A stretch of DNA of 64,000 nt from Palaeococcus pacificus DY20341 (GTDB taxonomy: Archaea > Methanobacteriota_B > Thermococci > Thermococcales > Thermococcaceae), in the NCBI RefSeq assembly GCF_000725425.1, contig NZ_CP006019.1:682001-746000 (forward strand), in the 5' to 3' direction. Made by a program: the position numbers and the translations under genes. How positions within the stretch are numbered: position 1 is the first letter of the stretch; every line of letters starts with the position of its first letter. This document shows, piece after piece, positions 5,082-57,464 of the stretch. The notes below the pieces were generated by a model. That model saw only the letters and a list, made by a program, of their open reading frames with translations. It did no database searches and was not told the origin of the DNA.

Positions 5082-5139
5082 ACCCTCAGCGATAGCTGGT
5101 ATCATCATGTCTCAGTTCCGAAACCGCTCTTCATCGGGC
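5082..5139 (-). ncRNA. Probable C/D box methylation-guide sRNA
   Basis: On the minus strand, in the non-coding gap between the alcohol dehydrogenase and thiM, the order is: terminal stem CCC (5138-5136), an imperfect box C with GATGA core (5135-5131), a 15-base guide, box D' CTGA (5115-5112), a 3-base spacer, a perfect box C' ATGATGA (5108-5102), a 12-base guide TACCAGCTATCG (5101-5090), box D CTGA (5089-5086), and GGG closing the stem. A 12-base guide and a 3-base D'-C' spacer are typical of archaeal C/D sRNAs. The D guide complements the conserved 23S rRNA stretch GATAGCTGGT, and the box D plus five rule would place the 2'-O-methyl on the A of GATA. The weak point is the first two bases of box C. 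Confidence 0.72.
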
Positions 5140-18564: not shown

Positions 18565-18642
18565 TGGCGGACCGGCGGGGATTCGAACCCCGGACCCTCG
18601 GCTTAGGAGGCCGATGCCCTATCCTGGCTAGGCTACCGGTCC
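18565..18642 (-). tRNA. tRNA-Arg (anticodon CCT)
   Basis: Read on the minus strand, 78 bases fold as a full cloverleaf: acceptor GGACCGG/CCGGTCC, D arm GCCT/GGGC, anticodon stem TCGGC/GCCGA around the loop CTCCTAA (anticodon CCT, reading AGG), a five-base variable loop, and T arm CGGGG TTCGAAT CCCCG. Discriminator base G, and the 3' CCA is encoded. No intron. The TATA element near 18677-18688 also faces the lrp gene on the other strand. Confidence 0.97.
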
Positions 18643-25721: not shown

Positions 25722-25846
25722 CACGGCGGTCACAGCGGCGGGGCCACACCCGGACTCGTTTCGACCCCGGAAGTTAAGCCCGCCAGCGATCCCGGTTGTA
25801 CTGCCTTCCGAGAGGGGGCGGGAAGCCGGGGACGCCGCCGGCCACT
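25722..25846 (+). rRNA. 5S ribosomal RNA (isolated gene)
   Basis: About 125 bases matching the Thermococcales 5S pattern: terminal helix ACGGCGGTC pairing with GACGCCGCC, CACACCCGG, CGGAAGTTAAGCCCGCC, GATCCCGGTTGTACTGCC and GGGCGGGAAGCCGGGG. No 16S or 23S sequence is adjacent, in keeping with Thermococcales where a 5S gene can be unlinked. Ends are set by the terminal helix and are accurate to a few bases. Confidence 0.95.
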
Positions 25847-27473: not shown

Positions 27474-28535
27474 ATGTACACTACAGTTTCTCCAGGAAGA
27501 GTCAACCTCATTGGTGAGCATACTGATTACAGCTTTGGTTATGTGATGCCAATGGCTGTGAACCTTTATACACAGATTGAAGGCGACGCTTTTGAGCATG
27601 TTGAACTTTATTCGAAGCACTTTGAAGAAACTAAGTCCTTCAAGCTTGACCAAATCAAAAAAGAAGACTCGTGGATAGATTACGTCAAGGCCATTTATTG
27701 GGTGCTTATTAGGGAGGGGCTGACCCCAAAAGGTATTAAAGGGAGGATTGGTGGAAATTTGCCCATTGGCTCCGGTTTAAGCTCTTCTGCAAGCTTTGAA
27801 CTCGCTGTAATATCTCTTTTGAACGAAATTTATAAGCTGGGGCTCTCTCCTAAGGACATGGCACTTTTGGCTCAGAGAGCTGAAAACGAATTTATTGGAG
27901 TTCCTTGTGGTATAATGGATCAGTTCATAATTGCTTTGGGAAAAGAAGATCATGCAATGTTCTTAGACACTGAAACGCTTGAATATGAGTATGTTCCGAT
28001 TCCAAAGGATATCCAGATTTTGGTTTTTCACACTGGTGTTAGGAGGATGTTAACCGGCTCTGCTTATGCAGATAGGCGGAAAATGGTAGTGGAGGTTCTC
28101 AGAAGAATCAGCAAGAAGTCCTCAAAGCATGTAGAAGAAAAAGACCTTAAAGGTCTCCCTGGGATATACAAAAGGCGCTTTGGTTACATAATAAGGGAAA
28201 ATAAGCGCGTATTGAATGCTCGGGATGCTCTAAAATCAGGAGACGTAGAAACTTTTGGGAAGATTCTAACTGAGGCCCATTTAGACATAGCGAGGAACTA
28301 TGGGGTAAGCTGCGGGGAGCTTGACTACATCGTAAGGAAAGCTGTTGAATTTGGGGCATATGGGGCAAGGCTGACGGGAGCGGGCTTTGGAGGTGCCGCT
28401 ATAGCAGTTGTAGATAGAGAGAAAGGGAAAGAGATTGGCGATAGGCTTTTGCTCGAATACTCTAGGGCATTCAGGTGGAAGGCTAAATACTTTTTAGTTG
28501 AGGCATCACAGGGCGTTGAAGTTTTTAGGGGGTGA
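27474..28535 (+). CDS. galK: Galactokinase
   Basis: ATP-dependent phosphorylation of galactose at C1, first step of the Leloir pathway. The 353 residues carry all GHMP-kinase signatures: PGRVNLIGEHTDYSFGYV (7-24, galactokinase signature), GGNLPIGSGLSSSASFELA, VPCGIMDQF and the C-terminal ARLTGAGFGGAAIAVV. Length matches other Thermococcales enzymes. It leads an operon with a GH57 alpha-galactosidase four bases downstream; galT is at the far end of the island. Confidence 0.97.
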   Translation: MYTTVSPGRVNLIGEHTDYSFGYVMPMAVNLYTQIEGDAFEHVELYSKHFEETKSFKLDQIKKEDSWIDYVKAIYWVLIREGLTPKGIKGRIGGNLPIGSGLSSSASFELAVISLLNEIYKLGLSPKDMALLAQRAENEFIGVPCGIMDQFIIALGKEDHAMFLDTETLEYEYVPIPKDIQILVFHTGVRRMLTGSAYADRRKMVVEVLRRISKKSSKHVEEKDLKGLPGIYKRRFGYIIRENKRVLNARDALKSGDVETFGKILTEAHLDIARNYGVSCGELDYIVRKAVEFGAYGARLTGAGFGGAAIAVVDREKGKEIGDRLLLEYSRAFRWKAKYFLVEASQGVEVFRG

Positions 28536-28539
28536 ACTC

Positions 28540-29625
28540 TTGCACGCCCTTGTTTTTCACGGCAATCTGCAGTATGCTGAGATTCCAAAGGGTGAAATTT
28601 CGAGAGTGATTGAAAAATCATACTTCCCAACGATAAGGGAGCTTTTGAAAAGCGAGATTCCATTTGCTTTGAATATAACTGGTTTTTCCCTCCAATTTCT
28701 GCCGCAGGAGCTTATAAACACCATTAAAGAAGGCATTGAAAGTGGATTAATCGAAATTACTGGCACTGCGTATACCCATGCAATCCTTCCGCTTTTGCCG
28801 CTTGATAGGGTTGAAGCTCAAGTGGTGAGGGACAGAACATTAAAAGAGGAAATTTTTGAGGTCTCTCCTAAAGGCTTTTGGCTTCCTGAGCTGGCTTATG
28901 ACCCAATAATCCCCGCGATTTTAAAGGACTGCGGCTATGAGGAAGTGTTCATTGATGGTGAGGCTTTACTCTTTTCGAATCACCTGAACTCTGAGATAAA
29001 GCCAATAAAGCCACTTTATCCACACTTAATTAAAGCGCAAAGGGGAGAAGGCCTCGTTTATCTCAACTATTTGTGGGGTCTTAGAGAGCTTAGAAAAGCA
29101 CTAAAGCTGACTTTTGGCGGAAAGGTTACTCTTAAGGCAGTTAAAACTATAAACGCTATTCCTGTATGGGTGGCCGTAAATACAATCGCCATGCTTGGAG
29201 TTGGCGGTTTTCCCTTGATGAGCGTTAAAAAAGCTGCAAAGTGGCTAAGAGGAATGGACAATGTTCTTCTTTACGGCACGGACATAGAGTTCTTCGGATA
29301 CCGTGATTTGGCGGGCTATACCTTGGAGGTCAGGAAAATTGTCGAGCTCATAGAGGAACTCAACACTGATATAATTTTCCCAAGTAAGCTAAAGCATAGT
29401 GGAAGAAAACTTTACCTAAGGACTTCGAGCTGGGCACCTGATAAGAGCCTTAATATTTGGACTAAAGACGAAGGTAATCGGAGGTTGAACACGCTCTCTT
29501 ATGAGTTAAATGGAGAAAACGCATTTTTGGCTGAAAACAGCGACGCCCGTGGATGGGAGCCTTTAGCGGAGCGCAGGCTGGATGCTTTTAAAGCTATTTA
29601 TAACGCTTGGAGGGATGAAGAGTGA
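28540..29625 (+). CDS. galA: GH57 alpha-galactosidase
   Basis: Intracellular hydrolase releasing galactose from alpha-galactosides. The 361-residue product matches the GH57-type alpha-galactosidase first described beside galK in Pyrococcus furiosus. The N-terminal motif FHGNLQYAEIPKGE replaces the HxHQP motif of amylopullulanases, and PKGFWLPELAYDP puts a glutamate at residue 117, the position reported as catalytic nucleophile in the P. furiosus enzyme. LLYGTDIEFFGYRD near residues 247-260 is the likely acid/base region. Start is TTG 28540 behind GGGGGTGA; there is no ATG nearby, and this start reproduces the Glu117 numbering. Its stop overlaps the permease start (GTGA). Confidence 0.92.
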   Translation: MHALVFHGNLQYAEIPKGEISRVIEKSYFPTIRELLKSEIPFALNITGFSLQFLPQELINTIKEGIESGLIEITGTAYTHAILPLLPLDRVEAQVVRDRTLKEEIFEVSPKGFWLPELAYDPIIPAILKDCGYEEVFIDGEALLFSNHLNSEIKPIKPLYPHLIKAQRGEGLVYLNYLWGLRELRKALKLTFGGKVTLKAVKTINAIPVWVAVNTIAMLGVGGFPLMSVKKAAKWLRGMDNVLLYGTDIEFFGYRDLAGYTLEVRKIVELIEELNTDIIFPSKLKHSGRKLYLRTSSWAPDKSLNIWTKDEGNRRLNTLSYELNGENAFLAENSDARGWEPLAERRLDAFKAIYNAWRDEE

Positions 29626-30965
29626 AGAATTTAAGGCGCAGAGCATCGATTGTTTTACTGGTTTTGATGGCTGCTTTTTTGATGGCTGATCAAAATCTTC
29701 TACCTCCCAACTATCAGCAGATTATGGCCGAGTTTGGTATAAGCGAAACTCAAATGGGTCTCGTTTCAACGATTTTCGTTGCTACAAGTGCTTTGATAAC
29801 CCTAATTTGGGGTTTTCTATCGGACATTAAGCGGAGAAAGCAGCTGTTGGTGGTTGGCGTTCTTTTAGGAGAAATTCCATGTTTTTTAACGGCGTTCGTC
29901 CAAAGCTATCCTCAACTTTTGCTCATGCGCCTCTTCACGGGCATTGGAGTTGGCTCAATAATTCCAATTGGATACTCCTTGATAGCAGATATGTTTGAAG
30001 AGGAGCACAGGGGAAGAGGGTACGCTTACATACAAACAGCCTTTGGCTTTGGAACGCTTTTTGGCATGGTTATCGCAGGATTAATAGTGAGCTGGAGGCC
30101 TCCTTTCATAATTGCATCTGTCCCAAACTTTATCCTCGCACCTCTATTCTATTTGATAGCAGAAGAGCCAAAGCGCGGTCAAAGCGAAAAGGAGCTTAAA
30201 GAAGTCCTTGAGAAAGGCTACGAATATGAGTATCGCTTAAGCTGGGATGCTGTAAAGAAGTCCTTTCAAACGAGGACAAACATATTAATATTTATCCAAG
30301 GCCTCTTTGGCACTGTTCCATGGGGAGTGCTCATGTACTGGCTCGTCTCGTTCCTTATCGTATCCAGAGGTATGGCCAAGGACACCGCTACATTTGTTCT
30401 CTTAATTCTGGGGATAGCGACGGTTATAGGAACGCTCTTCGGTGGATTCGTTGGAGACTACTTCGAAAAGAGGATGAAGGGAGGAAGGGCAGTAGCAACG
30501 GGACTGGCAGTATTCCTAGGCATGCTCGCTGCTTTAGGAATAGTAATATACCCCCTGCCAAGTGAGCTCACCGCTAAAGGCTGGATTGCTCTCGCAGTGT
30601 ACTCGTTCCTCTTTCTCCAGCTCGTAACATTTGCGGGTCCCAATGTAACTGCAATAATCTCACAAGTTAATCTCCCTGAAGACAGAGGAACTGTTTTTGG
30701 GGTTTTCAACATTATAGATAACGTTGGAAAAGCTTTTGGGCCTTTATTGGGGGGCTTTTTAATAGAGACCCTGCGAAGTGCGGGCTATACAAATACGCTC
30801 GCTTATGAGTATGCCATTATAATAGGCTCGCTCTTTTGGCTGCCCTGTGCACTCGTATGGATTTGGATAAGAAAGCAGTACCCTGAGGATAGGGAAAATA
30901 TTGGAGAAATCCTAAGGAAAAGAGCGGAGGAAATTCTGCGGAGGGAGGCGCATGATGCCTTTTGA
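29622..30965 (+). CDS. Major facilitator superfamily permease, probable galactoside carrier
   Basis: A 447-residue membrane protein with 12 predicted helices. MFS hallmarks are GFLSDIKRRKQLLVVGV (motif A loop after helix 2), LMRLFTGIGVGSIIPIGYSLIADMF and the second-half loop GFVGDYFEKRMKGGRAVA. GTG 29622 overlaps the stop of the alpha-galactosidase gene by four bases. Position within the gal operon suggests uptake of galactose or short galactosides; the neighbouring deacetylase allows an N-acetylated sugar as well. The transported sugar cannot be read from sequence. Confidence 0.92.
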   Translation: MKNLRRRASIVLLVLMAAFLMADQNLLPPNYQQIMAEFGISETQMGLVSTIFVATSALITLIWGFLSDIKRRKQLLVVGVLLGEIPCFLTAFVQSYPQLLLMRLFTGIGVGSIIPIGYSLIADMFEEEHRGRGYAYIQTAFGFGTLFGMVIAGLIVSWRPPFIIASVPNFILAPLFYLIAEEPKRGQSEKELKEVLEKGYEYEYRLSWDAVKKSFQTRTNILIFIQGLFGTVPWGVLMYWLVSFLIVSRGMAKDTATFVLLILGIATVIGTLFGGFVGDYFEKRMKGGRAVATGLAVFLGMLAALGIVIYPLPSELTAKGWIALAVYSFLFLQLVTFAGPNVTAIISQVNLPEDRGTVFGVFNIIDNVGKAFGPLLGGFLIETLRSAGYTNTLAYEYAIIIGSLFWLPCALVWIWIRKQYPEDRENIGEILRKRAEEILRREAHDAF

Positions 30966-31776
30966 AATGCTAAACAAGATGTTGGGGAGTTTAGATGACT
31001 TGGACGCCCTCAAGGCACTAATCCAAAGGTTCTTTGGTATAGACTTCGATGATCCGTTTAGAGATGTTAAAAAGGTTCTCTGTGTTCAACCGCATCCAGA
31101 TGACTGCGAAGTGGCAATTGGGGGAATATTAGCAAAGCTTTATCTTGAAGGAAAGGATATAGCTTACTTAACACTAACTGATGGCTCTATGGGAAGCCAC
31201 GACATAAGCTTAGAGCCAAAGGCTCTTGCGGAGATTAGGAAGGAGGAACAGGCGAGAGCTGCAAAGATAATTGGCGTGAAAAAGCTTATATGGCTTGATT
31301 ATATGGATACAGAGCTTCCATACTCCCCAGAAGTGAGGAACAAAATAATAAGCACGATTAGAGAAGAAAAGCCAGATATGGTTTTAGCCCCTGACCCTTG
31401 GCTTCCCTACGAAGTTCATCCTGACCACAGAAACGCTGGCCTCTTAGCGATGGAAGCCACATTCTTCGCGTCTTTCCCACATATAAACAAAGGCGACCTG
31501 GAGAACGGCCTAAAGCCGCACGATGTTCCTTTAGTTGGGCTTTACTACACAGCGAGACCTAACTACATTGAGGATATAACGGACATCTTTGAAGTCAAGC
31601 TCAAAGCTTTAAGAGAGCATAAAAGTCAGTTCGAAGCTAATTGGCAACAGTGGGAGATTTTCTTCAAATCTATGGCTCTATTCTATGGCAAAAGGATAAA
31701 TGCGATGTATGGGGAGGGACTTAAAATCCTTCCAAAAATGCTCCTTCACATCACTCCCTTCGCTGAGGTGATTTGA
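30952..31776 (+). CDS. PIG-L/LmbE-family N-acetylglucosaminide deacetylase (Dac-like)
   Basis: Zinc-dependent deacetylase of the family that includes diacetylchitobiose deacetylase of Pyrococcus and Thermococcus. The 274 residues contain the metal motif PHPDD (47-51; His48, Asp51), LTDGSMGSHD and the third zinc ligand in EVHPDHRNAG (about 143-152). The N-terminal 35 residues are a helical extension, as in archaeal Dac. It overlaps the permease by 14 bases and the GH4 gene by one base. Its place in a galactoside operon rather than a chitin operon suggests a disaccharide containing both galactose and an N-acetylhexosamine; this is inference. Confidence 0.88.
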   Translation: MMPFEMLNKMLGSLDDLDALKALIQRFFGIDFDDPFRDVKKVLCVQPHPDDCEVAIGGILAKLYLEGKDIAYLTLTDGSMGSHDISLEPKALAEIRKEEQARAAKIIGVKKLIWLDYMDTELPYSPEVRNKIISTIREEKPDMVLAPDPWLPYEVHPDHRNAGLLAMEATFFASFPHINKGDLENGLKPHDVPLVGLYYTARPNYIEDITDIFEVKLKALREHKSQFEANWQQWEIFFKSMALFYGKRINAMYGEGLKILPKMLLHITPFAEVI

Positions 31777-33086
31777 TGAGGATAGCCTTCATCGGTGCAG
31801 GGAGCATCTTCACTCCTTTAGCCCTCTACACAGTAGCGAACAGCGATGTTTTGGCTGATGCAGAAATTTATCTCATTGATGTGGATGGGGAGAGGCTGAA
31901 GTTTATTGAAGCTGTGGGGAGAAAAATAGGCAGGATTTTCAAAAAGGAGCTTAAAATTCAAGCCTTCACAGATGTAAAAAATCTACAAAATGTGGGTATT
32001 GACTATGCTGTTATCTCAGTGGAAAAGGAGAGGTATAAGCGCTGGCACTTGGATTTTGAAATCCCACATAAATACGGCATAAAGCAGGTCTTAGGGGAGA
32101 ACGGCGGCATCGGTGGGCTTAGCCACACTTTAAGGGTCGTTCCTTTGGTTTTAAGCATCGCTGAGGTTATTGGAGACATAAACAAAGATGCCTATACATT
32201 TATCTATTCAAATCCAGAGCCGAGGGTTACCTATGCTGTGAACAACTACGCAAAGCTAAAGAACGTTTATGGTTTGTGTACTGGTTACTTAGAGCGTAAA
32301 GAGAGCCTAGCTACTCTTTTAAACGTTAAGGAGAATGAGATAACCTTTACTGCCGCTGGGCTTAATCACTTCACTTGGCTTAAAGAGCTTAGCGTTAAAG
32401 GGAAAGATGGCTATCCAATCTTGGATGAAGTCCTAAAGAAGAGCCCTTCCTTTGAACCACTTTCCCAGCTCCTCTACAAAATCTATGGTCTCCTTCCATC
32501 GCCGAGCGACAACCACATAGGTGAATACCTACCATTCGCTTGGGAGTTAGTGCCTGAGGAAAAGAAGGGCTTAAAGTGGATTGAGCGGACGAGAAAAGAA
32601 GGGGAAGAGGTTAGGAAGCTCTTGAGGCTGTTTTTAAAAGGTTTAGTGCCGAAGCTTGCTTTCAATAAGTTCATCAAAAACCCAGACGTTGCGATGAGCA
32701 TCGTTGAGGGGCTTGAAGGCAAAGAAAAGCTTCAAGAGGCGATAAACGTCCCAAATGATGGCCACATAAACGGCCTTCCAAAGAGCACCATAGTTGAAGT
32801 TCCGGCTAAAACCTCACCTAAGGGGGTAAAGCCCCTTAGAGTTGAGCTCCCAAGGGAGATAATAGCCTTATTGAGAACACAAGCAGAGATTCAAAAACTT
32901 AGCGCAGAAGCTGCAGGCGAGGGAAGCATAGAAAAAGTTGCTAAAGCAGTTCTTCTCGACCCTGTCGTGAACAATGCGGAGAATGGACTTAGGGCGATGG
33001 CTGAGCTGATGAAGGTTCATTTGGATATGCTGCCTCAGTTTGACGAGAGGGATATCGAGGAAATAGAGAGAATAATAAAGAGCTAA
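31776..33086 (+). CDS. GH4-family NAD-dependent glycosidase
   Basis: GH4 enzymes cleave glycosides by transient oxidation at C3 with NAD and a divalent metal. The 436 residues start with a Rossmann IAFIGAGSIFTPLAL, then GENGGIGGLSHTLRVVP, the YSNPEPRVTYA loop, and the metal ligands Cys168 (GLCTGYLER) and His198 (AGLNHFTWLKEL), spaced as in characterised members. The CHSVQ-type sequence of alpha-glucosidases/galactosidases is replaced here by CTGYLE, closer to the phospho-beta-glucosidase side. ATG 31776 follows GAGGTGA and overlaps the deacetylase stop by one base. GH4 is uncommon in archaea. Substrate unknown. Confidence 0.88.
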   Translation: MRIAFIGAGSIFTPLALYTVANSDVLADAEIYLIDVDGERLKFIEAVGRKIGRIFKKELKIQAFTDVKNLQNVGIDYAVISVEKERYKRWHLDFEIPHKYGIKQVLGENGGIGGLSHTLRVVPLVLSIAEVIGDINKDAYTFIYSNPEPRVTYAVNNYAKLKNVYGLCTGYLERKESLATLLNVKENEITFTAAGLNHFTWLKELSVKGKDGYPILDEVLKKSPSFEPLSQLLYKIYGLLPSPSDNHIGEYLPFAWELVPEEKKGLKWIERTRKEGEEVRKLLRLFLKGLVPKLAFNKFIKNPDVAMSIVEGLEGKEKLQEAINVPNDGHINGLPKSTIVEVPAKTSPKGVKPLRVELPREIIALLRTQAEIQKLSAEAAGEGSIEKVAKAVLLDPVVNNAENGLRAMAELMKVHLDMLPQFDERDIEEIERIIKS

Positions 33087-34351
33087 AGATTCTCCAATCC
33101 ATGCTTTTCAATCAGCTCATCACTTATTTCCCTGCTCTTTGCTATTTCTCCATAAATATATGCGCTCCTTCTCGGCCTTCTTTCAAAAGTCTTGTAGTCA
33201 ACTTCAACAAGCCCAAATCTCGGCTCAAAGCCCTCTGCCCACTCGAAGTTGTCCATGAGCGACCAGTAGAAGTAACCTCTAACATCGTAGCTTTCTTTTA
33301 AAGCTTTGTGGACGTATTGAAGGTGCTGAATTATGAACTCTATGCGCCACTCATCGTCGAGTGTAGCTATGCCATTTTCAGTTATGTAAATAGGCTTCTT
33401 ATAGCGGCTTTGAACATTTGTTATCGCTTCATAGAGGCCTTTTGGATAGATGCTCCAGCCCATCAACGTCTTGCGCTCGCTTAAATCGGCCAATTTGGCT
33501 TCAAAGAAGAACTTTAGGGGATTCCAGCTATGCTTGACTTCTGATGCTGTATAATAATTAACTCCGATGAAGTCGACATCGCTCTTCGGGACATCATAAG
33601 TTTTTAGAGGGGTTTTCACTTTTCCACTCCAAATCGCATCGAGAAAGTTCCAGTTGAAGAGATTATCTACTCTATCTCTCGCTTTCTTGTCACGCTCGCT
33701 TTCGCTTGCAGGAATGAAAATCGGAATGTTCTTAACGATTCCAACTTTGAAGTTTCGCCCATTCAAAATTTCATAAGCTATAGCGTGGGCTTTAAGCAGA
33801 TTTGCCTCAACCTTTCCAGCATTTAGGGGATTTTTAACGAAAGGCGGCCAATACCCTTGGATGTAGCTCATCATAACGTATACCATAGGCTCGTTGAAGG
33901 TTGCTATTAGCTCAACACCTTCCAAGTTCTCGGCTATTGTTTTTACATAGATTTCCCAGTACCTCAAGTTCTCCTCTTTCGCAAAGCCACCTTTCTTCAT
34001 GAACCACATTGGGCTTGTAAAGTGGTGGAGTGTAACCATTGGAGTAATGCCCCTTTCATTGAGCAGATTTACAATTTCTTGATATCTCTGGAGGGCTTTT
34101 TCATTGAACTCCTTCTCCTTCGGAAAGATACGGCTCCATTCTATGGAGAAGCGATAAGCGTTGTAGCCGAGCATGGCCATAAGATCAATATCCTCTTTGT
34201 AGAGCTCCCAATGGTTGCAGGCTTTTCCAGATTTGTATTTTAGCTTTCCCTTCTGCTCATAAAACCACCAATCATTGAAGATATTGTTCCCTTCAATTTG
34301 GTGGGAGGAGGTTGCAGTCCCAAAAAGGAAACTCCGGGGAAATCTGAACAT
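33083..34351 (-). CDS. GH1 beta-glycosidase
   Basis: Retaining beta-glycosidase (beta-galactosidase/glucosidase). The 422 residues show FLFGTATSSHQIEG, ITPMVTLHHFTSPMWF, the acid/base TFNEPMVYV, and the nucleophile in PIYITENGIATLDD; the C-terminal WSLMDNFEWAEGFEPRFGLVEVDY is also typical. At 422 residues it belongs to the short archaeal subgroup (Pyrococcus horikoshii has a 423-residue member), not the 470 to 510-residue CelB type. Start ATG 34351 (MFRFPRSFLFG) is preferred over GTG 34360. Convergent with GH4 (four-base overlap), so it has its own promoter near 34380-34390. Confidence 0.94.
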   Translation of the reverse strand: MFRFPRSFLFGTATSSHQIEGNNIFNDWWFYEQKGKLKYKSGKACNHWELYKEDIDLMAMLGYNAYRFSIEWSRIFPKEKEFNEKALQRYQEIVNLLNERGITPMVTLHHFTSPMWFMKKGGFAKEENLRYWEIYVKTIAENLEGVELIATFNEPMVYVMMSYIQGYWPPFVKNPLNAGKVEANLLKAHAIAYEILNGRNFKVGIVKNIPIFIPASESERDKKARDRVDNLFNWNFLDAIWSGKVKTPLKTYDVPKSDVDFIGVNYYTASEVKHSWNPLKFFFEAKLADLSERKTLMGWSIYPKGLYEAITNVQSRYKKPIYITENGIATLDDEWRIEFIIQHLQYVHKALKESYDVRGYFYWSLMDNFEWAEGFEPRFGLVEVDYKTFERRPRRSAYIYGEIAKSREISDELIEKHGLENL

Positions 34352-34487
34352 GCATGACACCCATTACCCAGATATGTGGCGATATATTAATAAACTTTGG
34401 CACAGGAATATAAACAAATAGAAACCATTGACTTTGCTTTAGTCAATAGTTTTGGGGACTTTAATTGTTCTATGGAAAATTTTGGAT
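34352..34487. promoter_or_regulatory. Divergent promoter region with inverted repeat
   Basis: Leftward TATA-like TTAATATA (about 34383-34390, minus strand) serves the GH1 gene. Rightward AATATAAAC at 34407-34415 serves the C13-like gene, with transcription expected near 34436. That point is covered by the inverted repeat ATTGACT (34427-34433) / AGTCAAT (34441-34447), seven bases apart, placed as a repressor site would be. Confidence 0.45.
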
Positions 34488-36680
34488 GTGAGAAGGTTGA
34501 AAAGAGGTTTGATACTGCTGGCCGTTCTGGCTGGTCTTGTGGTGGCGGCGCCTTTTATGGAGGCCCACTTTGACCCGCCCGGTCAGCCTGCGGTTCAGGT
34601 AAATGTGTACTTTATAGGCATGTCCCTGAGCGAGGATATGGACGACGGTGCAAACGGATACGCGGACATAATCGGCAGATATAAGGTCACGCACAGCGGG
34701 CACAGTACCAGAGACGGAAAAATCAGCATGTTCTACTACGACTGGGACACATTGAAGGGACAGGCGGGCTATATAAAAAAGCAGCTGTTGTACAGCCATA
34801 AGGAATGCTCCCCAGTGACGCCGATAAATGTTGAGGTCAGCATGGAGGAGTACAATACCATTTTTTCAAACACACAGCTCGGCTCGGGCTCCATAACGAT
34901 CACAAAACCTGGAATATATGAGATAAAACTGGATAAGGGGAAGGCTATCATAGAGGTCAAAGTGACTCCTGCGGTTCTGTACTCTGAAAAATGCTCCTAC
35001 TTCTACGACCAGCCAGAGGACTATGCGAGCAGCATTGTGACAAGCTCTGGGGGGTATGTTTACGACTGGCAACTTGCAAACATGATGAAGATGTGGATAG
35101 CCAACAGAACGGGCTATGCGAATATGGTCTTCATCTTCAACCAGTGCTTTGGCGGAGGAATGATTGATGACCTTAAAGAAAAGCTAAAAGGGACGGGGGA
35201 TGCGGCCTTTTTGAGCGCTTCCAAGCATAATGAAACATCTTGGGGTCTTGCTGATGGCTACACACCAGCCAGCTGGCCTGAAATGGGGAAAAGGGGATTC
35301 ACCCGGCCCGAAGGCTACTACCCAAAGGAAGTTGGAGAGGAGTTAGAAAGGACAGGTAAAGATGCCCCCACAATGAAAGAGATGGCCAAAAGAGCCGAGC
35401 AACAGGATGCACGTGGCCCTTACGGGTTGGGCTTCAAGGAAACCCCTCAGTACACTTCGGTGGGAAATGGAGATAATATTAAGATAGGAAAGAAAGTTGA
35501 TGGTTCAGATGTTGCAAGCAAGCATGCCATCCTTTTTGCTGGAGATGCTGACAGCAAAAGACACTGGAACAATCTAGATAGGGCATATAAAGCACTTAAA
35601 AAGCAGGGTTTCACCGATGGAGACATAATAGCTCTGGCTGGAAATGGGAAAACCATGCCAGACGGTACAAATGTCCCAAACTATGTGGATGGACCAGGTA
35701 CAAAAAAGGCCCTTTTTGAGGCTATTATAAATGTAAGCAAAAAAATGAACAAAAACGAGCAGCTCATATTTTGGGTCTCTGATCATGGGAATAGAGAAAG
35801 GACAGAAACAGCCCTTGATAAAGCGATAAAAGATCCCGTAAAGCAGACGGTGCCCCCAAGAGAGACTGCCAAAAGAACCGGACAAATTTCTTGGGATCTG
35901 GATGAGGAATTTTTAAAAGTGATAAAGCTCGATCCGAACAACCAGCCTTATGTGAGCATACTCGTTGAAGCAACTCCTGTGGTTATTGAATATGGAGAGT
36001 ATTTCCTTGAGAATATAAAACTCTACGTAAATGAGAACGAGTTGGAGTTAGAGCTAATCGAGCCCATCATTGCATATGATGAGGAACCGGATTTGGATGC
36101 CTATGAACTTGTGTATCTTGTGGATGAGAGGATTCTGGGAGAAGAAAACCTCATTGAGGTTGAATGGTCAGGGGATGCAGAAATGTTCGTTGAGTACAAT
36201 ATAATGGGGCTCATGATAAGCACAGGAGGCATAAATGAGCTTGAACCTGAACTCATTGAAGTTGTTGAGGAGCAAACTCTCTTTGACCTTCTGAGAGAAT
36301 ATGTGCCCATATACAATGAAAATGCCGATAATCTGCCAGGATTTATCAAAAGAATAGCTGGAAATGAGAGGATAGACCTCGAGATAACGCTTGAAAACGA
36401 AAGCATCCTCACCATAGGCGTCGTGACGGAAAATGGCCGCATAGTGGAATTTTCAAAAGGCAAAATTTCAGAGCCGACGATGAGGGCATGGACAAGCGAA
36501 GATGTTGCCAGGAGGATCATAAACTCTGAAGACCCCGTGAGCACGGGAGTAAACGCCCTAAAAATGGGCGAGATAAGATACAGCGGCGTTGGATTTAGGA
36601 GAACTCTAAGAGTTTTTGCAGTGAAGATAGTCATAAAAGTGTACAGAGTAGTGGAGGTCATAGGAGACCTCTTTGGCTGA
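34488..36680 (+). CDS. Secreted protein with two legumain-like (C13 / caspase-fold) segments and split catalytic residues
   Basis: A 730-residue protein with an N-terminal signal segment (RRLKRGLILLAVLAGLVVAA). Segment 1 (about 183-255) matches the second half of a C13 peptidase: a helix, the strand NMVFIFNQCFGGGM with Cys220 (codon 35145), then SASKHNETSWG, which parallels the legumain ATTASN.ESSW element. Segment 2 (about 344-500) matches the first half and more: KHAILFAGDADS, YKALKKQGFTDGDIIAL, and LIFWVSDHG with His433 (codon 35784), parallel to YFTDHG; its own cysteine position reads VEAT (Thr496). Thus Cys and His lie in different segments and in reversed order. A strand-rich C-terminal domain follows, with a hydrophobic end. 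The start is uncertain: GTG 34488 gives a clean signal peptide; TTG 34452 is the alternative. Base composition changes near 35460. Confidence 0.75.
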   Translation: MRRLKRGLILLAVLAGLVVAAPFMEAHFDPPGQPAVQVNVYFIGMSLSEDMDDGANGYADIIGRYKVTHSGHSTRDGKISMFYYDWDTLKGQAGYIKKQLLYSHKECSPVTPINVEVSMEEYNTIFSNTQLGSGSITITKPGIYEIKLDKGKAIIEVKVTPAVLYSEKCSYFYDQPEDYASSIVTSSGGYVYDWQLANMMKMWIANRTGYANMVFIFNQCFGGGMIDDLKEKLKGTGDAAFLSASKHNETSWGLADGYTPASWPEMGKRGFTRPEGYYPKEVGEELERTGKDAPTMKEMAKRAEQQDARGPYGLGFKETPQYTSVGNGDNIKIGKKVDGSDVASKHAILFAGDADSKRHWNNLDRAYKALKKQGFTDGDIIALAGNGKTMPDGTNVPNYVDGPGTKKALFEAIINVSKKMNKNEQLIFWVSDHGNRERTETALDKAIKDPVKQTVPPRETAKRTGQISWDLDEEFLKVIKLDPNNQPYVSILVEATPVVIEYGEYFLENIKLYVNENELELELIEPIIAYDEEPDLDAYELVYLVDERILGEENLIEVEWSGDAEMFVEYNIMGLMISTGGINELEPELIEVVEEQTLFDLLREYVPIYNENADNLPGFIKRIAGNERIDLEITLENESILTIGVVTENGRIVEFSKGKISEPTMRAWTSEDVARRIINSEDPVSTGVNALKMGEIRYSGVGFRRTLRVFAVKIVIKVYRVVEVIGDLFG

Positions 36681-36743
36681 CTTTTTTATTTTGCACCGAA
36701 AGAAAAATTAAGCCCGAGCCAATATTTTTTCTTTGGTGAGAGA

Positions 36744-37730
36744 ATGAGAGAGCTCCGCTATAACCCCTTAACAGGCCAATGGATAATGGTTTCTGCTGTG
36801 AGAAAAAAGAGACCCTGGCGCCCTAAGAATTTTTGTCCTTTTTGTCCGGGAAGTGAAGAAACGGGCTTTGGCTGGGAAGTTCTGCTTTTGCCAAATAGAT
36901 TCCCAATGCTTGATTTCAAAGCGGAAAAGCCTCAAAATGAAGGTTTTTACAAAAAAGCGGGAGCGATTGGGCAGTGCAGCGTTATAGTGGAAACGCCGGA
37001 GCATAATTTGAGGGATTTGGACGAGCTTTCTCCTGAGCAGATGGTTAAGGTTGTTGAATTATGGAAAAGTGTAACTATGGAATTAAAGGATAATCCCCAC
37101 GTTGCTTATCTTGCCATCTTTCGAAATAAAGGCGAAGAAATTGGTGTGAGCTTAACTCACCCTCACGGCCAGCTCTATGCTTTGCCATTCATCCCTCTAA
37201 AGGTTCGTTTGAAAATTGAGAACTCAAGGAAACATTACAAGCGCTTTAACGAGTGCCTCTTTTGCCGCATCCTGGAGGAGGAGATGAAAGGGGAGAGGGT
37301 TATTTACGAGAACGAAAGCTTTGTTCTCTTCATGCCATTCTATGCGAACTGGCCTTTTGAGGTGCACATTTATCCTAAGTGTCATATACAGTGGCTGACA
37401 CAATTGAATAAAGAAGAGATTGAAGATTTAGCGGATGTTTTGAGGGTTGCAACGGCAACACTTAACGCTCTCTTTGACAGGCAGATGCCCTATGTTATGA
37501 ACATCTTTCAAGCACCGTTTAAGGGCCAGTATAATTTTTATCACCTGCACATCGAGTTTTATCCCATGCTGAGGGACAAAGACAAGCTTAAATATGCGGC
37601 TGGAATTGAAATGGGTACTTGGGAGTTCACTTACGATGGGATTCCCGAGGAGAACGCCCAAAAGCTTAGAGAAGCGTGCAAAAAGGTAAAAGAGATGCTT
37701 GGGGCAAGAGGAGAGTGTTTTACTCCCTGA
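36744..37730 (+). CDS. galT: Galactose-1-phosphate uridylyltransferase
   Basis: Exchanges UDP between glucose and galactose in the Leloir pathway. The 328 residues include YNPLTGQWIMVSAVRKKRPW, a zinc site CPFCPGS, the active-site HPHGQLYALPFIP (the histidine before GQ is the nucleophile), a second C.FCR cluster, and EVHIYPKCHIQ and FYHLHIEFYP metal ligands. ATG 36744 follows GGTGAGAG. It has its own leader after the C13-like gene, and its stop overlaps rqcH by 11 bases convergently. With galK it completes conversion of galactose to UDP-galactose. Confidence 0.96.
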   Translation: MRELRYNPLTGQWIMVSAVRKKRPWRPKNFCPFCPGSEETGFGWEVLLLPNRFPMLDFKAEKPQNEGFYKKAGAIGQCSVIVETPEHNLRDLDELSPEQMVKVVELWKSVTMELKDNPHVAYLAIFRNKGEEIGVSLTHPHGQLYALPFIPLKVRLKIENSRKHYKRFNECLFCRILEEEMKGERVIYENESFVLFMPFYANWPFEVHIYPKCHIQWLTQLNKEEIEDLADVLRVATATLNALFDRQMPYVMNIFQAPFKGQYNFYHLHIEFYPMLRDKDKLKYAAGIEMGTWEFTYDGIPEENAQKLREACKKVKEMLGARGECFTP

Positions 37731-53492: not shown

Positions 53493-53976
53493 CTGAAGGT
53501 TTTTCGATGCAAGCTCTAAATTTTTGTTTTTCTCGACTCTAGCTATTCTGGTTATATTTTAATGAATAAGACTCTAAAAATACATTGTGAGTGTTTAGTA
53601 ATTCAAGGTTATTAAATCACTTTTTGGTATAAATCTCATCGATTTTTATAACGTTTTAAATATATACATTTGAAACCGGGGGTTGAGAGAGCTCTTTTTA
53701 TAGACATCCTCATAAAAAACTGGCCTTTTTTAATTTCAGGACTTTCTAAATGATATTGCTGAGCTTAGGCCTTTGTTTGGCCGTTGGAAGTCTTATGAAC
53801 ATTCTCGTTCATTATTCTAAAGGCTTTTTTTGAAATTTTAGCTTTTACATTGGCGATTATATAATGTTTGAATTTGGAGCCACTTAGAGCTTAATTTTTT
53901 ACCCCTTTGCCATAAGACTTTTATAGTTAAAGCCCATTTAGTTCCCTATTAGAGATTTAAAGGAAAATCTGCTCCT
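53493..53976 (+). promoter_or_regulatory. CRISPR leader
   Basis: 484 bases without a gene, AT-rich with many T and A runs (such as TTTTTATAACGTTTTAAATATATA near 53640). CTTTTATAGTTAA at 53918-53930 is a likely TATA box, placing the start of pre-crRNA about 25 bases before the first repeat at 53977. It is on the side opposite the truncated terminal repeat, which fits a leader. Leaders of Thermococcales arrays are about this length. Confidence 0.75.
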
Positions 53977-56900
53977 GTTCCAATAAGACTTTAGAAGTAT
54001 TGAAAGTTGGGGAAAAAGAAGAGTTCAAAGAAGAAGAACAGCGTTCCAATAAGACTTTAGAAGTATTGAAAGTTTTAATAATGTCTAGCTCTTTGAATTG
54101 TTCAAAAGAGTTCCAATAAGACTTTAGAAGTATTGAAAGTTGTAGAGACTTCTAGTTCACTGTCGGCTTTTGAAAGTTCCAATAAGACTTTAGAAGTATT
54201 GAAAGAACGCGGAGAACTTTGTGGAATTTTTAGGAATTTCGAGGTTCCAATAAGACTTTAGAAGTATTGAAAGATCGGGCAGGTTGCGGAGTGGGTAGTT
54301 GAAAAAGTGGTTCCAATAAGACTTTAGAAGTATTGAAAGCTCTGGCGTGAGAGGTGCAAAGTTTGCAAAGATATTAGTTCCAATAAGACTTTAGAAGTAT
54401 TGAAAGCACTCAAGGCGTTGCAGCACATTGAGATTGAGATCCGGTTCCAATAAGACTTTAGAAGTATTGAAAGTCATCTTTAGCATGAAGTAGCTCAAAG
54501 GAGTGTTTGGTTCCAATAAGACTTTAGAAGTATTGAAAGGACAACATTAAGTGCCTCCCTCGTTTTAGTATAGATCGTTCCAATAAGACTTTAGAAGTAT
54601 TGAAAGTCGTAATCATAGAGATAAAACGTTCCTGTCCATGATGGAGAGTTCCAATAAGACTTTAGAAGTATTGAAAGCGTATCTAAGCACGTCTTGAGGA
54701 TTATCGGCGCTCTTGAGGTTCCAATAAGACTTTAGAAGTATTGAAAGTAAAGTCTTCGTTTTTGCTAAAAAGCCTATCATGCTGTTCCAATAAGACTTTA
54801 GAAGTATTGAAAGACATTTGTCGTTACAACTGCGAAGTTCTCAAATGAGAGTTCCAATAAGACTTTAGAAGTATTGAAAGGGCTTTTGATCCTGCTACTA
54901 TGCCATAGCTAACTAAGTTCCAATAAGACTTTAGAAGTATTGAAAGGGCTGAAACCAGGCTCATAGTCTTTGGCCAGGTTGCTGTTCCAATAAGACTTTA
55001 GAAGTATTGAAAGAGGGAAATGGTAGCTGAGCCTGCCCCTGCTGTGCAGCAGGTTCCAATAAGACTTTAGAAGTATTGAAAGCACAAGGACGAATGCGAG
55101 GAATTTTGGGACTTGGATGTTCCAATAAGACTTTAGAAGTATTGAAAGAATTGTAGAGGGCGCACAACTGCGCTCTTGAGGAGAGGAAGGGTTCCAATAA
55201 GACTTTAGAAGTATTGAAAGCGAAGAATTGAAGCTAAAGAACACGCAAGCGCACTATGTTCCAATAAGACTTTAGAAGTATTGAAAGGGGGACATGATTA
55301 TGTTTCTGAATGGACAGGCAGAACGTTCCAATAAGACTTTAGAAGTATTGAAAGAAAGACATATTAGAAGGATTATTAAGGCGTTTGAAGGTTCCAATAA
55401 GACTTTAGAAGTATTGAAAGCTCATCAGAGCACTATGAGGAGGAGTTCAAGGCTGCGTTCCAATAAGACTTTAGAAGTATTGAAAGAAGATGAAGGTTGA
55501 AAGAAAAGATTTGATTGGGTTGGTTCCAATAAGACTTTAGAAGTATTGAAAGAGATATTCCTAACTCTTTTGCTATTTGTGATGCTGAGTTCCAATAAGA
55601 CTTTAGAAGTATTGAAAGAGATTAATTGAGAAAGTCCCAAAAATTGAGAGAAAGTTCCAATAAGACTTTAGAAGTATTGAAAGACAATAGAAGAAGCGGT
55701 CGAGTGGCTTAAGGAAAAGGTTCCAATAAGACTTTAGAAGTATTGAAAGCTGGCGAATACACCCACAGAGATGGCGAGGTACATGGTTCCAATAAGACTT
55801 TAGAAGTATTGAAAGCTCATTGTGGAGAAGTTAATTGAAGTTTCAGCAGGTTCCAATAAGACTTTAGAAGTATTGAAAGTTTTATGGCTCTTGGACTACT
55901 AGCGAGGAGGAGTTTGGTTCCAATAAGACTTTAGAAGTATTGAAAGTCTGGAACATTCACGCTGATAACTGAGCGTGTGAACGTTCCAATAAGACTTTAG
56001 AAGTATTGAAAGAGCTTGATTAGAGTTGAAAAGCAGATTGCGGGGCTTAGTTCCAATAAGACTTTAGAAGTATTGAAAGCTCAGGATTAAGACGAGGAGG
56101 CTCCTCTTCTTCCCAGTTCCAATAAGACTTTAGAAGTATTGAAAGCTGAGAGTTCAAGAGTATCTAAAAGTTCAAAGCGTGTTCCAATAAGACTTTAGAA
56201 GTATTGAAAGCGCCGCAGGAGCTCGATTATGATTTGTTCTGGTTTTTCGTTCCAATAAGACTTTAGAAGTATTGAAAGACGCGGGCGGAGCGGGCTAATT
56301 ATCTTTTAAGACGTGTTCCAATAAGACTTTAGAAGTATTGAAAGACTGCTTTCTCAAGCTCCTTCACGAACTTCAACTCCTCGTTCCAATAAGACTTTAG
56401 AAGTATTGAAAGATACGGGTTTCATGAAGCAGAGAAAGGAAGCGCAAGGTTCCAATAAGACTTTAGAAGTATTGAAAGTTACAGCTGATGGAATCAATAA
56501 TGAACTCAATACAAAGTTCCAATAAGACTTTAGAAGTATTGAAAGTTACAGCTGATGGAATCAATAATGAACTCAATACAAAGTTCCAATAAGACTTTAG
56601 AAGTATTGAAAGTTACAGCTGATGGAATCAATAATGAACTCAATACAAAGTTCCAATAAGACTTTAGAAGTATTGAAAGTTCACCACCTCCTTAACGGCT
56701 CTCACGCTCCTTCTTCTGTTCCAATAAGACTTTAGAAGTATTGAAAGGCATTTAGACTAATCACTGCTGAAACTATCCACCAAGTTCCAATAAGACTTTA
56801 GAAGTATTGAAAGCAAAGAGGAAGGAGGGCGATAGCATGAGTAGATTTGTTCCAATAAGACTTTAGAAGTATTGAAAGCTTGCAAGAGGGAAGCTCTTCA

Positions 56901-57464
56901 TCATACGTTGAGCCTGGTTCCAATAAGACTTTAGAAGTATTGAAAGTGGAGTGTTTTGTTTCAAGAGTGGCAAGAATCTGAGGTTCCAATAAGACTTTAG
57001 AAGTATTGAAAGTATTTCGTTGGTTGGCTACCAGCACAGCTTATCTTTGGGTTCCAATAAGACTTTAGAAGTATTGAAAGTACATTCTTCTCATTGAGTT
57101 GTATAGGCTCTATCGAGTTCCAATAAGACTTTAGAAGTATTGAAAGCAGTGCAATGTTTGTAGGTCTAAGAGAGCAATGGACTGTTCCAATAAGACTTTA
57201 GAAGTATTGAAAGGCTGGAATGGATGCAGTTAATAGCGTTGTTTTGAAAGTTCCAATAAGACTTTAGAAGTATTGAAAGACTGTCGTCGATGAACAGGAA
57301 ATGATCTTACTTCAATGGTTCCAATAAGACTTTAGAAGTATTGAAAGTGCTGCCTCCTCTACATCCTCCATTTCGAGAATTGGAGTTCCAATAAGACTTT
57401 AGAAGTATTGAAAGTCTGATGATACTCAATCATCGGGTGGGGGGGCAACAAAGTTCCAATAAGA
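53977..57464 (+). CRISPR. CRISPR array: 52 complete repeats plus one truncated terminal repeat
   Basis: A 30-base repeat starts GTTCCAATAAGACTT and ends AGAAGTATTGAAAG. I counted 52 complete copies starting from 53977 to 57385, and a final partial copy at 57453-57464 that keeps only GTTCCAATAAGA. Spacers are mostly 36 to 38 bases, up to 42. All full copies I read were identical. Three consecutive spacers at 56479-56515, 56546-56582 and 56613-56649 are the same sequence. Leader on the left and degenerate repeat on the right give transcription in the plus direction. There are no cas genes in the window, so the type cannot be told here; the GTTCCAATAAGAC...GAATTGAAAG-like repeat is typical of Pyrococcus/Thermococcus arrays served by type I and III systems. 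Confidence 0.98.

Follow-up and report, generated by a model that had tools for sequence, protein, structure and literature searches.

A secreted multi-domain protein of Palaeococcus pacificus whose catalytic core is very likely a naturally circularly permuted peptidase C13 domain

In clan CD peptidases, the catalytic histidine precedes the catalytic cysteine along the chain (PMC12445089, PMC7804941). A gene in the 64,000-nucleotide stretch of the Palaeococcus pacificus DY20341 chromosome analyzed here (the window) encodes a legumain-like protein in which the cysteine comes first, raising the question of how such a chain could build a C13 active site. The first-pass annotation had offered two answers, a circularly permuted peptidase or two tandem domains with complementary loss. 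We consider it very likely that the product is secreted, comprises several domains, and has as its catalytic core a natural circular permutant of the peptidase C13 (legumain-like, clan CD) domain, and that the Cys-His order is reversed because of this permutation. The permutation itself is well supported by sequence comparison; the active site, the activity, and the specificity are what we infer.

The whole gene (34488..36677, forward strand) comprises 730 codons counted from a GTG at 34488 and is followed by a stop codon at 36678-36680; the open reading frame on the forward strand, which opens at 34452, has the limits 34452/34488-36680. The protein likely starts at the GTG at 34488 or at the TTG at 34497, the position where relatives carry Met, and the TTG at 34452 is also a possible start. 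All residue numbers of the window protein are counted from the GTG at 34488. Residues 1-26 (34488..34565, +) are a predicted signal peptide on the basis of the sequence and the alignment of homologues, in which Ala26, at the likely cleavage site, never varies. The open reading frame 34488-36680 is real, and Cys220 and His433 lie where the first-pass annotation had put them. Cys220, the predicted nucleophile (codon 35145-35147, +), is found within YANMVFIFNQCFGGGM, and His433 of the DHG motif, the predicted catalytic base (codon 35784-35786, +), within LIFWVSDHG. The annotated order, Cys half before His half, was borne out and recurs in the 18 aligned full-length homologues; every member has Cys220 and then His433, and none shows the His-then-Cys order of clan CD. 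An assembly error or local fusion was ruled out because the same arrangement recurs across many genomes from two lineages of archaea.

The whole window protein was compared with the Pfam profile PF01650 (Peptidase_C13) and scored 29.0 bits (E 9.7e-7, cut-off 22.8), the match falling into two pieces arranged in reversed order. Residues 187-254 correspond to profile positions 128-190, and the His half searched alone to positions 2-41. Each half thus scores against PF01650, as the C13 assignment had implied, and chance is far exceeded. When the same residues were put in canonical order, the score of the window protein rose from 29.0 to 44.0 bits, and those of two further members rose from 33.4 to 48.1 and from 31.8 to 42.0 bits. 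The family is found weakly by ordinary profile searches because the domain is permuted, and NCBIfam has no family for the window protein. Matches of the reordered profile to BURRH, which are scattered across many short repeats, were set aside.

The order of the segments was also analyzed using a doubled reference, in which the catalytic domain of a Muribaculaceae protein (L037) was written twice. The doubled domain aligned with the window protein in a single colinear stretch covering residues 191-434, with a score of 161 compared with 104 for the single L037 domain and a maximum of 64 among 500 shuffles. The path of this alignment starts at the post-His segment, continues through the Cys half, passes over the junction of the old C- and N-termini, and ends at the His. 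In a cut-point scan, 13 canonical domains (an archaea-free set) were used to build profiles with the permutation point moved in steps of four positions. The window protein reached its highest single-domain score, 39.2 bits, at position 120, compared with 20.3 bits in native order; this optimum falls at the catalytic His loop, directly after DHGGTTDYD, and residues 186-439 then span nearly the whole model. A member from the Archaeoglobales peaks at the same cut point (49.0 versus 21.9 bits in native order). In a control with a nine-sequence model, canonical proteins outside the model score highest uncut, and most archaeal family members score highest with a cut at positions 60-120; five of the 18 members are indiscriminate in this control, L023 and L028 favoring no cut point and L058-L060 showing only a slight preference. 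In profile-profile comparison (hhalign), the Cys half matched the canonical family with a probability of 97.1% and the His half with one of 96.5%. The doubled domain, the cut-point scan, the profile-profile comparison, and the Pfam gain all support the circular permutation that had been proposed.

Pfam, the doubled-domain alignment, the cut-point scan, and hhalign together delimit the two halves of the permuted domain. The Cys half (residues 186-339, 35043..35504, +) contains, in canonical naming, the post-His hairpin, helix 3, strand 4, strand 5, and the C-terminal helix, and the His half (residues 340-439, 35505..35804, +) contains strands 1-3. The join between the old termini was placed at residues 326-346 (35463..35525, +) by the doubled-domain alignment; there, the TPQY..VGxGD of canonical relatives represents the old C-terminus and strand 1, KHAILFAGD, the old N-terminus. 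The full-length AF2 model, made with seven alignment rows, had a pLDDT of 56 and a poor core, and a separate core model reached a pTM of 0.74 and a pLDDT of 66 with nine rows, two of which were halves of a canonical protein. The elements of the core model, named from the sequence alignment, follow the order hairpin, helix 3, strand 4, helix 4, strand 5, helices, and a short strand, and then strand 1, helix 1, strand 2, helix 2, and strand 3. The caspase-type sheet of C13 and clan CD has six strands in the order 2-1-3-4-5-6; at this modest pLDDT of 66, the predicted secondary structure elements would be compatible with a permuted order. A Foldseek search with the core model returned no significant match; Foldseek aligns in sequence order only.

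The same comparisons bear on the tandem alternative, in which two C13 domains have each lost one catalytic residue and their faces rebuild one site. Permutations are thought to arise via tandem duplication, and the helix-strand unit at residues 469-496 looks, on superficial inspection, like the Cys unit. However, the N-terminal domain, the tail 440-510, and the region 466-590 reached at most 0.3% probability against the canonical C13 profile in hhalign, and internal comparisons (the Cys unit with the tail, the N-terminal domain with the His half) were not consistently above shuffles. A single permuted domain, moreover, spans nearly the whole canonical model. A separate canonical partner was also considered, and no second C13 match was found in the same genome. 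Two details of the first-pass annotation failed. The stretch SSIVTSSGG, suggested as the His strand of the first segment, corresponds in the alignments to the hairpin located after the catalytic His of canonical relatives; Thr496, suggested as the Cys position of the second, lies in the tail that scored 0.3% against C13, varies among T, P, and L, and sits on a strand of the beta-rich domain at residues 466-594. The tandem model is unsupported because a second copy of either half is undetectable, and we regard it as highly improbable.

Could the core be permuted and yet inactive, serving as a C13-like binding or structural module? Activity is known for no member, five of the 18 have different S1 residues or weaker profile scores, and the protein carries several accessory domains. 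Against this, Q219, C220, H247, D432, H433, and G434 are invariant in the 18 homologues from Thermococcales and Archaeoglobi, as are neighbors of Cys220, His433, and Gly434, and the invariance of the catalytic residues extends to homologues with 42% identity. The His-Gly and Cys motifs of C13 and clan CD enzymes are thereby present as His433-Gly434 and Cys220 in all of them. The core is under strong purifying selection and is the most constrained region of the protein, with 31% invariant columns and a dN/dS of about 0.04-0.08 for the sequence pairs that allowed computation. The mature protein has only three cysteines (C107, C169, and C220) in all but one of the 18 homologues; C107 and C169 perhaps form a disulfide, and a third, probably unpaired cysteine is retained. 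An inactive module is therefore unlikely. A different alternative concerns the general base, which could be His247 rather than His433, making the dyad local to the Cys half and leaving the working order unreversed. His247 is invariant in 18 of 18 members, and most canonical bacterial relatives have other residues there, but His433 is equally invariant and lies in the DHG motif that aligns with the catalytic His of C13 enzymes, so that we hold this assignment to be highly improbable. As an observation in its own right, His247 (35226-35228) belongs to the strand-5 motif ASKH and is missing from most canonical relatives.

The permuted domain is probably enzymatically active, as a cysteine peptidase or transpeptidase, because none of its parts is missing or duplicated and its catalytic residues are conserved. 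In the proposed course of events, the old termini would have been fused and the chain opened anew in the loop that links the catalytic His strand to helix 3, which would give a dyad in the order Cys220, then His433. The permuted chain would refold to the usual sheet, where Cys220 and His433 could meet as in a cysteine peptidase or transpeptidase. Arg358-His359 (35559..35564, +), identified by conservation and by alignment with the Arg-His of plant peptide ligases, is a candidate S1-type pair; an Arg-His pair of the Arg44-His45 type lines the S1 pocket of legumain (PMC4357240). The alignment with this legumain-type pair suggests a preference for Asn/Asp, and the pair may form a legumain-like pocket of this kind in Thermococcales. 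Arg-His is found in 15 of the 18 members, and Tyr-Asp in three, all from Archaeoglobi.

The domains flanking the core look C2-like and SCP2-like in the predicted models. The N-terminal beta domain (residues 27-166, 34566..34985, +) was assigned a C2-like fold by Foldseek, which matched many C2 domains (best E 4e-6, TM-score to the target 0.4-0.6), and this region of the full-length model has a pLDDT of mostly 66-90. It has conserved acidic loops, MDDGxNGxAD (51-60) and YDxD (84-87), and no C2 sequence match was found for it in Pfam or among PDB sequences. The core is followed by a beta-rich domain and linker (residues 466-594, 35883..36269, +), delimited by the secondary structure of the model and lacking C13 similarity in hhalign. 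The C-terminal domain (residues 595-730, 36270..36677, +), with a long terminal helix, appears SCP2-like from Foldseek matches to 3bn8 and 3cnu, AF1534 (E 4e-5 to 6e-5, 18-21% identity), and gave nothing significant against SCP2 profiles or the sequences of structures. The enzyme could be held at the cell surface or on lipid by the C2-like and SCP2-like domains, the former of which may depend on calcium. It is conceivable, if very unlikely, that the C2-like and lipid-carrier-like domains make the reversed-dyad clan CD enzyme a calcium-dependent transpeptidase of the surface, which might, for instance, attach proteins to a lipid in the manner of GPI transamidase, a C13 member.

Two further observations concern these flanking domains. 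The SCP2-like C-terminal domain recurs in other secreted Archaeoglobi proteins (L061, L064, and L066), in one case following a dockerin, with a cohesin-like protein beside it. Synonymous sites of the C2-like domain (34566-34985) are saturated in comparison with L002, L003, and L005 (ps about 0.85), with values of 0.3-0.4 in the core, and the domain is close to L004 and L006. Because the C2-like domain is saturated and the core is not, yet the domain stays near L004 and L006, we take this as a sign of recombination within the gene.

The full-length homologues from Thermococcales show 61-88% identity, those from Archaeoglobi 55% and 42-43%. Matches were obtained in 16 of the 115 genomes of the window's class, one of them a frameshift-split copy and one a remnant; among Archaeoglobi, five of 59 genomes encode full-length members. 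The split gene, which lies in two overlapping frames, and the remnant, the only trace in another genome (L024 and L012), indicate that the gene is dispensable in some strains. No member was found in 23 and 152 genomes of two other archaeal phyla, none beyond Archaeoglobi in 394 genomes of their phylum, where the weak matches L091, L097, and L098 were left aside, and no relative in three scans of viral contigs. In the genome-contig scan, the sole match outside Thermococcales and Archaeoglobi was the Muribaculaceae protein L037 (883 aa), which has the normal order and one continuous C13 match of 59.1 bits. Caspase/C13-like secreted proteins in canonical order also occur in the same archaeal class (L017, L016, L030, and L018).

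The large subunit of caspases holds both catalytic residues, so the permuted caspase cpCasp2 retains the dyad order there. Circularly permuted caspases are known as engineered enzymes, and cpCasp2, in which the large and small subunits are exchanged, has a clan CD fold that was made functional with swapped segments (PMC7760212); in the literature searched here, permuted caspases were encountered only in engineered form. However, cpCasp2 is man-made and cut between subunits, whereas the archaeal family is natural and cut between His and Cys. Naturally permuted papain-like peptidases (PMC10318531) share with it a natural permutation in a cysteine peptidase, but they belong to clan CA and have another fold. 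With C13 itself (legumain, vacuolar processing enzymes, and peptide asparaginyl ligases of clan CD), the family shares a PF01650 score above the cut-off, the DHG and Cys motifs, the Arg-His S1 pair in most members, and the alignment of both halves with solved C13 enzymes; unlike C13, the archaeal, secreted window protein has the Cys half first and C2-like and SCP2-like flanks. The closest normal-order relatives found are the Muribaculaceae C13-like proteins (L037, L076-L088), which have the GQC/NQC, GGxIDDL, TPQY, and DHG motifs in common with the archaeal family; the latter has a replacement for the acidic DxDGNG loop that precedes their last helix. A comparative review (PMC4357240) does not mention permutation, and our search of the open-licence literature turned up no account of a natural permutant in clan CD, which leaves novelty unproven. 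A conserved natural permutant cut between the catalytic residues would mean that the clan CD fold tolerates termini there, and it would provide a thermostable scaffold with which to examine whether folding and zymogen control depend on the His-Cys order.

The gene lies amid sugar genes (28498-37730) for a GH57, an MFS transporter, a PIG-L deacetylase, a GH4, a divergent GH1, and a galactose-1-phosphate uridylyltransferase. GH4 and/or GH1 adjoin the gene in several Thermococcales relatives, and neither does at the Archaeoglobus locus L035. Elsewhere in the window, Rfam models identified the C/D-box RNA sR28 at 5084-5138 (-), a tRNA at 18568-18642 (-), and a 5S rRNA at 25722-25843 (+). A CRISPR array at 53967-57450 (end approximate) holds about 52 copies of the 30-base repeat GTTCCAATAAGACTTTAGAAGTATTGAAAG at a spacing of 64-72 bases.
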